A stretch of DNA of 64,000 bases, from the NCBI GenBank assembly GCA_029262055.1, contig JAJDAD010000033.1:1-64000 (forward strand). Reading direction: 5' to 3'. Positions 3,543 through 53,423 of the stretch are shown piece after piece. Positions within the stretch are counted from its first letter, which is position 1; every line of letters begins with the position of its first letter. A program made the translations under genes and the position numbers. The notes under the pieces were generated by a model. The model had not been told where the DNA came from and ran no database searches. It was given only the letters and a program-made list of their open reading frames with translations. The stretch comes from Candidatus Zhuqueibacterota bacterium. Its GTDB lineage: Bacteria > Zhuqueibacterota > Zhuqueibacteria > Oceanimicrobiales > Oceanimicrobiaceae.

Positions 3543-3979
3543 GCATCCTCTCCCAGAATCTGAAACCCATATCGCTTCATAAACAACTCATATTCCTCCG
3601 CAAAACCCTTCACGCGATGATGCTCCTCCTGACTCTTGATGTATTCACGCACTCTTGGCACAGCCGATCTGCTGACCGACAGCCCCATATATTCATTTTG
3701 CCAACAAAATCTCGTTTTCGTCAGTTGGTTCGCATTGACCCAATGTGAAGATTCCCCTTTCAGAGCCTGAGCCACCTCCGCAATGGTCTGGCTGGCGTTC
3801 AAAGATATCAACGTGTGCACGTGTTCACTGTAGCCATTGATGAAATCCAGGTGAATTCCTTTTTTCTTGGCGTTTTGCCGAATGTGTTGAAAGACCGGTT
3901 GCCGGACTTGTTTTGTCAGAAATGGGTGGCGGTTCTTTGTTGCCCAAATCAGGTGGATCCAGACGTTGATGTAAGACAT
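3536..3979 (-). CDS. REP-associated tyrosine transposase (IS200/IS605-like, Y1 HUH)
   Basis: RAYTs are single-domain HUH nucleases that bind and nick REP palindromes as single-stranded DNA. The 147-residue protein shows the family opening (VWIHLIWATKNR), the HUH-type metal motif HVH at residues 53-55 and the nucleophile helix VREYIKSQEEHH with the candidate catalytic Tyr at 113. All key residues are present and the frame is intact, so it could be active. The ATG at 3979 is preceded by GGGAGG at good spacing; the in-frame GTG at 3985 overlaps that ribosome binding site and is rejected. The gene is bracketed by REP-like palindromes (3531-3542, 4001-4014, 4045-4056) and borders a degenerate tandem repeat. 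Confidence 0.9.
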   Translation of the reverse strand: MSYINVWIHLIWATKNRHPFLTKQVRQPVFQHIRQNAKKKGIHLDFINGYSEHVHTLISLNASQTIAEVAQALKGESSHWVNANQLTKTRFCWQNEYMGLSVSRSAVPRVREYIKSQEEHHRVKGFAEEYELFMKRYGFQILGEDAG

Positions 3980-51450: not shown

Positions 51451-51927
51451 ATGTTCAAGAACTATGTTGGATGGTCACTAAACAAAATAGCAGAAGAATC
51501 AACGATAGTCAAACGTATCCGCATTATGCGACTCTGTTTTACCTTAACGTTAATCAGTGTATTACTGTCAGTTCAGAGTAATGCTCAAGAGTCTGCTGCG
51601 ATTCCCCCTGTCGACACAGTTGTCTCTCCGGATACTCTGTTTCAAGAAATCAGATCAGAGTTACAGAAAGCAGTCAAAGAGGGAGAGCTGCCTTCTGTGG
51701 CGATAGGAGTTATTCATAAGGATAACGTCTTGTGGCAAGAGGCCCTTGGCTGGGCAGACAAAGAAAATAAGGTGCCTGCTACGACCGCAACAAGTTATGG
51801 GCTTGCATCCGTCGGTAAATCGGTCACTGCTACGGGGGTGACGGTACTCGTGGATCAGGGTAAGGTCGTTCTTGATAGCCCGGTCGGTCCCTATATTGCA
51901 CCGACAAAACTGTCAGTGGGCACTTTA
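51451..51927 (+). pseudogene. Truncated serine hydrolase (class C beta-lactamase fold), interrupted by an IS21 derivative
   Basis: The frame encodes a signal peptide (MRLCFTLTLISVLLSVQSNA, from codon 26) and the start of a beta-lactamase/PBP4*-type domain: PSVAIGVIHKDNVLWQEALG, the SxxK nucleophile motif in LASVGKSVTA, and DQGKVVLDSPVGPYIAPTKL. It stops being homologous near 51920, where the IS21 remnant begins; the remaining frame to 51969 is element sequence. The YxN and HxG parts are absent and were not found beyond the element, so the gene is dead. GGAGG precedes the ATG at 51451. Confidence 0.8.
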
Positions 51928-51955
51928 AAAGCGGCCACTTCCGAAGCATTCAGGG

Positions 51956-52128
51956 TTAGTCATTTTTGATATTTTTATCAAGTTTTTTGTTCAAAGATTT
52001 CACGCGGTAGCTTCGTCCGGTGATTTTGATGAGATTCATACCATCCATAAACCGATCCAGGATTGCCGAAGTGGTGACATTGTCTCCGAGGATTTTTCCC
52101 CAGTCCTCAATGGGCGATATCTCTGAGA
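51956..52128 (-). pseudogene. istB: istB fragment (C-terminal part of the IS21 helper ATPase)
   Basis: About 57 codons: EDWGKILGDNVTTSAILDRF, DGMNLIKITGRSY and a Lys-rich tail, matching the C terminus of IstB proteins. Walker motifs are lost in the deletion. Confidence 0.8.
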
Positions 52129-52253
52129 TATTGTGCTATCACTGGACGTGACAGGTTCAGAGTCCTGGATATGGCTCGTTCGCTTAGATGGCATTGTTGT
52201 TTCAGTCGTATGATTTCTCGAACCTTGTTCATCGAGATCCTCCGCATTGGCAT
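52110..52253 (-). pseudogene. istA: istA fragment (N-terminal HTH of the IS21 transposase)
   Basis: The first 47 codons of IstA with its HTH (LKQQCHLSERAISRTLNLSR), starting at an ATG with GGAGGA upstream, then a stop at 52110-52112. The integrase core is deleted. It overlaps the istB fragment in another frame at the deletion joint. Confidence 0.8.
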
Positions 52254-52345
52254 AGTGGTCCTCCGTTTGATACACTATCAACGGAGGCATGCTAATAAAC
52301 AGGCGAGAAATGTTCTTGGGAAAAATGCTGACCGGAGAACTAAAG

Positions 52346-52437
52346 TGGCAGGTTTCGTCCGGAATACCTGGCAGTTTTCAACCGGAATGGGTGGCAGGCT
52401 TCATCCGGAACAGGTGGCAGGTTTGGACCGGAATACG
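52346..52437. repeat. Four 23-bp tandem terminal repeats of the IS21 element
   Basis: Copies of TGGCAGGTTTCGTCCGGAAT begin at 52346, 52369, 52392 and 52415, exactly 23 bases apart. Differences lie mainly in the middle (TTTCG, TTTCA, CTTCA, TTTGG). IS21-type elements carry such multiple end repeats as transposase binding sites. Confidence 0.85.
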
Positions 52438-52505
52438 CACTTTATTCGCCAGTCGTAAACAATGACGCATAAAATGTTCATGGTTCTTCATATCAGAACA
52501 CCTAC

Positions 52506-53423
52506 TCATTTCGGGTTGAAGGGTGAATAATCGATCAGGTTCCAGGAGGCGCCTTTAAGCGAATCTATCTGAACCCACTCATTGACCTTAAACGTCCAGA
52601 AACGCCCTGTGCCGCCAGAGACTTCTTCAGCATTTGTTTCACCCCAAGCAATTCTTGCTTCTCCCGTTATCTGTAAAGTCTTGCCCATTTCGAAATCGAC
52701 AAACAGCAGGCCGGCCTTTGGGTTCGTCATAAAATTTCCCAACGTATTGTACATGCTATTTCCCTGATAATCAGGTACTTTAAGAGTGAGGTCATCCAAT
52801 ACCTGTATGAATCCTGGATTTCCGCCACGATGAGAAGCATCCAGGTTGCCTTCGTCGTCCGAACTGCCGACAAAAAATGTGTCAGAATTTTGAACCTGTT
52901 CTTTCAAATCAGCCGTCAATTGGGCCCCTCTTCTTATTGAATGCTCGACAGCAGGCGGCACCGATGTCACTGCAATTTCCCGGCGTTGAATGTATTTGGG
53001 GCAGTTCGGAAACGCCTGCTCAACTGAAACGCGAAGATTGCCATTGTCTATGGAAGCACTGCCATTTACCCTCAACCTTCTTCTGGTCGCCAGTTCGATA
53101 AAAAGCAACCCGATACGACTCTCATCCTCCATATTCTTCCAAAAGGGATCCAATTTGCAGCTGACCATTGCAGGCATATGGATAGTGATATTTCTTTCGT
53201 CTACTGCGGTAACAAAACCGGGCTTTCCGGCAAGAATGGATGTCCAGATATTTCTTTGTCGGTCCAGGCTGCTCACAATGACTATAGATTGTTTGTCGAT
53301 AAATTGCAAGGCTCCCACAGGTATGAAATCCTTTATGGCAATTCCGGTGCGCATGGCGATATCTTCTTCACCGACTTTCTTTTGAATCTGCAACTCGCCT
53401 TCGTGAAAAGGTGATAGCGTCAT
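52506..53423 (-). CDS. Pyridoxamine 5'-phosphate oxidase-family FMN-binding protein
   Basis: 305 residues with the split-barrel flavin fold, apparently in two halves: an N-terminal lid and barrel (FIDKQSIVIVSSLDRQRNIWTSILAG) and a C-terminal PPOX-type barrel (QNSDTFFVGSSDDEGNLDASHRGGNPGF; AGLLFVDFEMGKTLQITGEARI). The second matches the pattern of MSMEG/YwrO-like and Pnp-type FMN proteins. The substrate is unknown; general flavin or F420-dependent reduction is possible. AGGAG precedes the ATG. It probably shares its promoter region with the DsrE gene (75 bases upstream), separated by a terminator. Confidence 0.85.
   Translation of the reverse strand: MTLSPFHEGELQIQKKVGEEDIAMRTGIAIKDFIPVGALQFIDKQSIVIVSSLDRQRNIWTSILAGKPGFVTAVDERNITIHMPAMVSCKLDPFWKNMEDESRIGLLFIELATRRRLRVNGSASIDNGNLRVSVEQAFPNCPKYIQRREIAVTSVPPAVEHSIRRGAQLTADLKEQVQNSDTFFVGSSDDEGNLDASHRGGNPGFIQVLDDLTLKVPDYQGNSMYNTLGNFMTNPKAGLLFVDFEMGKTLQITGEARIAWGETNAEEVSGGTGRFWTFKVNEWVQIDSLKGASWNLIDYSPFNPK

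Follow-up and report, generated by a model that had tools for sequence, protein, structure and literature searches.

The 64,000-nucleotide stretch of Candidatus Zhuqueibacterota DNA analyzed here (the window; contig JAJDAD010000033.1) carries at positions 51911-52439 (529 bp) a fusion of parts of two equally oriented IS21-family insertion sequences: the right end of one and the left end of another. The two belong to different groups of the family, which are named type II and type I in this analysis. With high confidence, the arrangement is explained by two IS21 insertions in two genes followed by one deletion with breakpoints inside both, which left an inert product. An earlier note on this DNA had described a single nonautonomous derivative of an IS21 element, which it thought might be MITE-like and open to mobilization in trans.

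Architecture of the locus

Going from left to right, the 5' part of a serine hydrolase gene with a β-lactamase-like fold (51451-51910, plus strand) is cut by the type II element. All features that follow lie on the minus strand. The type II right (istB-side) tip, TGTCAGTGGGCACTTTAAAAGCGGCCAC, occupies 51911-51938; herein, 23 of 23 nucleotides at 51916-51938 are those of the inner end repeat of the related locus L040. Next come the last 52 codons and the stop of the type II istB (51956-52114; assigned by PF01695, NF038214, and comparison with L040), the putative deletion junction CCCAT (52110-52114), common to type I istA and type II istB, and the first 48 codons of the type I istA (52110-52253; aligned to the istA of contig C64). 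The type I left (istA-side) end, consisting of four 23-bp repeats and the tip GGAATACGCA, spans 52345-52439. The type I element cuts a cytidine/nucleoside deaminase gene, of which the first 17 codons (MKNHEHFMRHCLRLANK) are encoded at 52440-52491. The next host gene to the right, at 52506-53423, encodes a PNPOx_N domain (PF01243, E 3.4e-13).

The whole unit was used for a search of its own genome (G000, a draft of 114 contigs), and its two halves served as separate queries against other genomes.

The type I half and its intact parent

The type I part of the window (52110-52439, minus strand) comprises the left end and the start of istA. A search of the own genome with positions 51900-52460 at E <= 0.001 returned four matches: the unit itself, a match of 339 columns and 90% identity on C64, and two short end-repeat matches, one each on C64 and C98. 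Further copies of the whole unit, whose absence the earlier note had named as speaking against its reading, are thus missing from the own genome at this threshold, and a full-length parent exists there for the type I half and not for the type II half.

The parent on C64 is an intact IS21 type I element of 2580 bp (L005, 5222-7801). Its IstA has 521 aa (NF033546, IS21 family transposase, 262.3 bits with a cut-off of 160), and its IstB, encoded downstream of istA, has 246 aa (NF038214, 254 bits with a cut-off of 200). The element begins with TGCGTATTCC and ends with GGAATACACA, the right tip sequence ending ATACACA, and is flanked by a 6-bp flush target duplication, TCCGCG. Hence, IstA, IstB, multiple terminal repeats, TG...CA tips, and a short duplication, by which the type I element is placed in the IS21 family, are all found on C64. 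The copy in the window retains one end and 48 istA codons, and its istB is absent. It matches the C64 element from the left tip (52439) via the istA start (52253) to codon 48 (52110), with 306 of 339 columns identical over the type I end region.

The four repeats of 23 nucleotides lie at 52345-52436 with start-to-start spacings of 23, 23, and 23, exactly as the earlier note had reported. The same four recur at the left end of the intact C64 element, and they are therefore not a product of chance. When the own genome was scanned with a pattern of the end repeat (at most two mismatches), 11 places were found, as opposed to none with the reversed pattern: the window unit accounts for four of them, C64 for five, and C98 and C44 for one each, the last being a probable chance match. 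No MITE-like end pair was detected in the own genome with this pattern, which is strict and also failed to pick up both outer repeats at the right end of the C64 element. In a scan with the type I IstA, 24 stretches matched a pattern, and one locus (L144) encodes a relative that is 71% identical. On C98 (L006:3480-3600), a fragment some 50 bp long, in which one type I-like end repeat is complete, is located between two copies of AGACATTATGTTAAAAAGTA; judged from their open reading frames, the adjoining genes probably encode an RHS-like protein and an IS256-like transposase.

The type II half and its relatives

The type II part of the window (51911-52114) consists of the right end (TGTCAGTGGGCACTTT...) and the last 52 istB codons. 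Read on the minus strand from 52114 to 51956, the sequence encodes PIEDWGKILGDNVTTSAILDRFMDGMNLIKITGRSYRVKSLNKKLDKNIKND followed by a stop, and the last 47 residues match the end of IstB. This tail aligns with positions 201-234 of 238 of PF01695 (E 2.3e-5) and reaches 27.4 bits with NF038214 (E 2.3e-6); the cut-off of 200 applies to the whole protein, and the shortfall is expected for a fragment. The local alignment score of the tail is 169 with the IstB of L040 (32 of 42 residues identical) and 65 with that of C64 (14 of 43), compared with maxima of 45 and 42, respectively, in 500 shuffles each. Both scores exceed the shuffle maxima, so that the tail is related to both proteins, being much closer to type II.

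L040, in genome G038, is the nearest intact type II relative (68% identical over the tail). It measures 2579 bp, is flanked by a 7-bp flush duplication, TTATCAA, and has open frames of 548 (istA) and 261 codons (istB), counted stop to stop, in which PF01695 (E 4.8e-69), rve, and Mu-transpos_C_2 domains are recognized. The IS21 membership of type II is read from this relative, which shows the IstA/IstB pair, TG...CA tips, and a short duplication; the window copy has the IstB tail and the right tip. Beyond the istB stop, TGTCAGTGGGCACTTTAAAAGCGGCCAC leads to the tip at 51911. A tip pattern, written to fit this tip, matched the window, L039, L041, L042, and L044 among ten loci scanned, the window included. 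The bare tip and the exact start at 51911 rest on TGTCA, which is common to L040, L041, L042, L044, and L039. By eye, one type II end repeat is seen in the window and two are seen in L040; L038 also has one on that side. The earlier assignment to the IS21 family is therefore correct, and its assignment to a single nonautonomous element is not, the istB remnant coming from a different element than the repeats.

No second copy of the 206-bp left piece or of the IstB tail was found in the own genome at E <= 1. With the L040 IstB (252 residues) as the query, 15 of 63 genomes of the class matched at E <= 1e-10. The matches in G028 (63% identical), in G061 (80%, over a 65-residue piece), in a fusion in G024 (57%), and in the window piece (68%) stand apart from the remaining ones, which, L040 itself aside, are 25-41% identical. 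Eight of the 63 genomes belong to the own family, and the own genome alone matched among these, with the C64 IstB (31%), the window fragment, and a piece on C12 (30%). At the DNA level, apparent type II remnants occur in two other genomes of the family: a type II tip and istB tail in G004 (L039, E 1.5e-14) and, more weakly, an istB tail in G002 (L043, E 5.6e-5). Used as a query, the 206-bp left part matched 30 of 194 genomes, the own included, at E <= 0.01; many of these matches span 20-40 bp and are probably due to chance, and nine were examined further.

Two of the related loci deserve a separate description. The type II-like copy L038:1033-2360 (G024:C116) has an internal deletion as well, by which istA is joined in frame to the end portion of istB. 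Its istB breakpoint lies about 16 codons upstream of that in the window, and TTTCAT is common, by eye, to its junction and the istB of L040. L038 and the window, as two cases, would at most hint at a deletion hot spot. In L134 (G003:C695, own family), a lone type I-like end with four repeats (2695-2785) is separated by about 1 kb from a fragment of a type II-like istB that encodes an N-terminal part (3774-3929, 56% identical over 52 aa). Remnants of both IS21 groups are hence again neighbors at L134:2695-3929, in an arrangement that differs from that of the window.

The 8-bp repeat

The sequence GCACTTTA, which the earlier note had placed correctly at 51920-51927 and 52437-52444, was reported there as a direct repeat bordering the element. 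These are its only two places on the plus strand of the window, with none on the minus strand, and about 0.9 occurrences per strand are expected from the base composition. The left copy sits inside the type II terminal repeat, and the right copy is composed of GCA, the last three bases of the type I element, and CTTTA of the host gene. In addition, GCACTTTA was present in all seven other loci counted (L038, L040, L041, L042, L044, L045, and L046), each time, by eye, within an end repeat and with different flanks. Countercases are the type II end of L039, with GCATTTTA at this place, and the outermost L040 repeat, with GTACTTTA. The C64 copy lacks the repeat at its ends and shows the 6-bp duplication described above instead.

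The pair is taken as a coincidence of five bases and not as a target duplication. With the bounds of the unit corrected to 51911-52439, no flush repeat of 3-12 bp is found between its outer flanks. An insertion of the type I element into the type II tip at CTTTA was considered as well and rejected: past 51927, the type II sequence goes on without a break, and it is the deaminase gene that flanks the unit on the right.

Flanking genes

The broken gene of the earlier note is confirmed: from 51451 onward, the open reading frame matches positions 4-99 of the 329 in the serine hydrolase profile PF00144 (E 1.4e-18) and is truncated. In a paralogue of the own genome (C77, L085), hydrolase-like sequence continues, by eye, beyond the point at which the window gene is cut. 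Homologues of the fragment occur in 53 of 99 genomes, the own included, at E <= 1e-8, and the match with the best E-value outside the own genome is 34% identical. Among the 25 of 39 NCBIfam matches listed, class C β-lactamase models score 17.7 to 30.1 bits with cut-offs of 415 to 875; these scores lie far under the cut-offs, and no resistance function is therefore implied.

Right of 52439, the deaminase reading frame is cut after its start. Full deaminase genes with a like start are found beside a PNPOx-like gene on G002:C57 (L084) and on C91 of the own genome (L086), with E-values for PF00383 of 1.2e-27 and 3.9e-26. In both, the deaminase gene is followed by a DUF1330-like gene, recognized by Pfam in L084 and by likeness in L086. 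The region of the PNPOx-like gene shows 78% DNA identity to G002:C57. As a query, the right flank matched three of 60 genomes, the own being one of them, and identified the deaminase gene, not the left flank. The earlier statement of a further loss of DNA is borne out; the right flank is the start of a deaminase gene and not the hydrolase gene. With two different genes at its sides, the unit cannot be accounted for by a single insertion.

The paralogous cluster on C91 (L086:306-2551) contains intact PNPOx-like, deaminase, and DUF1330-like genes in the own genome, and the gene loss at the window may therefore be buffered.

Junction, origin, and alternative explanations

At the breakpoint, type I reads ATATCGCCCATACAGG, the window ATATCGCCCATTGAGGACTGG, and the type II relatives L040, L137, and L038 read GCCCATAGAAGATTGG, CCCCATCGAAGATTGG, and ACCCATTGAAAATTGG, respectively. 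CCCAT is found in C64 and in all three type II relatives, and it is here that type I similarity stops and type II similarity starts. The length shared at the junction is deduced from the letters of the three relatives since the type II parent of this copy is absent from the genome. In the proposed sequence of events, a type II element would have inserted in the hydrolase gene and a type I element in the deaminase gene. One deletion, by slippage or end joining at CCCAT, would then have connected a point in the type II istB with a point in the type I istA, thereby removing what else the two elements contained, the 3' part of each host gene, and any DNA in between. With both breakpoints lying inside the elements, ordinary illegitimate recombination is suggested rather than transposase action at a tip. 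The product is considered inert because its two tips differ and both a whole transposase and a whole helper are absent.

It is extremely unlikely that the unit is instead an internally deleted single IS21 copy, MITE-like, bordered by an 8-bp target duplication and mobilizable in trans by a parent. Such an origin would fit the confinement of GCACTTTA to two places in the window and the presence of a type I parent in the own genome, and relatives seem to carry MITE-like IS21 units, as described below. The left half, however, belongs to the other IS21 group with a different tip and IstB, GCACTTTA is common in type II end repeats, and the two flanks are different genes. Inverted ends of the same element, a flush duplication, and several copies in the own genome, as expected for a MITE, are all lacking: the ends come from different elements, and the unit is present in a single copy. 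Mobility in trans would not be expected either because IstA pairs two ends of one element and the tips of the unit are mismatched; judged from the sequence, mobilization of the window unit is unlikely. According to excerpts of PMC10122671, an IstA tetramer joins the two terminal inverted repeats of one element.

Fusion by two deletion breakpoints within one region is also to be weighed against insertions at distant sites or on different replicons that were brought together by inversion, cointegrate formation, or translocation. In G002, matches to left-flank genes lie on C56 (a cupin gene), C10, and C54, and the right flank lies on C57 beside intact deaminase and DUF1330 genes, as distant sites would predict. 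Matches to the window region are, however, scattered in the family in general (12 in five of seven genomes, those of G002 alone spanning six contigs), so that this split says little; an undeleted locus was not found in any relative. Since a single deletion would be simpler, the distant origin is regarded as rather unlikely. IS copies are common misjoin points in assemblies, and the genome is a draft of many contigs; even so, a misjoined contig is very unlikely here. Only about 5-8 nucleotides are common at the junction, far fewer than in an assembly word; the identity between the type I copy and C64 is 90% and not complete, and no other copy of the type II tail was found in the genome. The locus is accordingly read as two IS21-family insertions that underwent ordinary decay and were joined by a deletion, and the MITE reading is rejected at this place.

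End pairs in genomes of the same class

Five gene-less, MITE-like units, 114-184 bp long and bounded by inverted type I-like ends, were observed in genomes of the same class, four of them in G057 and one in G021. The G057 units lie on C333 (184 bp, L130:1697-1880), C221 (138 bp, L184:66-203), C306 (114 bp, L186:521-634), and C152 (156 bp, L139:2723-2878), and the G021 unit lies on C69 (160 bp, L135:2927-3086). All have inverted TGCRTATTCCGG-like tips; the far tips of the C221 and G021 units deviate at one or two positions. With the two IstA and the two IstB proteins as queries, tblastn found nothing at E <= 1e-3 in L130 (4292 bases), L135 (6001), L139 (4022), L184 (900), or L186 (1101). A flush duplication is seen in one of the five units (C306, CTTAT, 5 bp), and the other four show none of 3-12 bp. 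The C333 and C221 units are 92% identical over 134 bp and differ in the number of left repeats (four and two); those of C306 and C152 are 87% identical over 109 bp. Both pairs have different flanks. Two further G057 contigs, C253 and C194, carry what look like truncated relatives of these units.

Within the type I right end on C64 (L005:7680-7801), the terminal repeat recurs as an inner, inverted copy that might act as a second tip. At E <= 1e-8, four of the five units align with this right end, the exception being C152. The same stretch is also matched by sequences next to whole istB genes of G060 and G011, and part of the likeness of the units is therefore that of an ordinary right end. IS21-derived miniature elements thus seem to exist in this class, although not at the window, and one duplication among five units is thin evidence. 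That the class carries true IS21-derived MITEs, with one to four repeats of the 23-bp type per side and several diverged copies in G057, and that they may stem from a type I-like right end whose inverted inner repeat serves as a second tip, is given an even chance. Ends left over from deletions remain a rival explanation of the pairs; at some places, e.g., L132 (G044), a single end has no partner in the 5.5 kb covered.

Comparison with known systems and implications

Like the elements described here, IS21, IS5376, and their kin combine istA and istB with TG...CA tips and duplications of a few base pairs at intact copies. Two or more terminal repeats per end are given for the IS21 family in excerpts of PMC10122671 and PMC11208146. 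The window differs from such members in holding only the mismatched ends of two of them, and the type I element has four left repeats. ISPve1, an IS21-family element of Paracoccus versutus, resembles the window in that an IS21 insertion is tied to the loss of neighboring DNA: excerpts of PMC3281130 report deletions of 0.5-4.5 kb that take in DNA adjoining the 5' end of the IS. At the window, by contrast, both breakpoints are inside elements. The bacterial MITEs MITEPsy1 and MITEPye1, tied by their authors, in excerpts of PMC3189936 and PMC11578231, to ISPsy2 of the IS5 family and to the IS1182 family, respectively, are short and without a transposase gene, as is the window unit. MITEs, however, have paired ends of the same kind and further copies, and the window unit has neither. 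An IS21-derived MITE was not found in the open-licence literature searched, which is not proof of absence; none appears in the excerpts of PMC9330008, PMC12755819, PMC3189936, PMC3281130, PMC10122671, PMC11208146, PMC6053426, and PMC11578231.

A decayed pair of related insertion sequences can hence mimic a single nonautonomous element. Agreement in family name together with a chance 8-bp repeat is insufficient for such an assignment, and both tips as well as both flanking genes need to be checked. The gene-less IS21 end pairs, one of them with a clean target duplication, are the part that could interest transposon specialists. In excerpts of PMC11208146, autoinhibition of the IS21 transposase is proposed to be maintained by the multiple terminal repeats. 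Miniature substrates of natural origin that vary in repeat number would allow this proposal to be tested.
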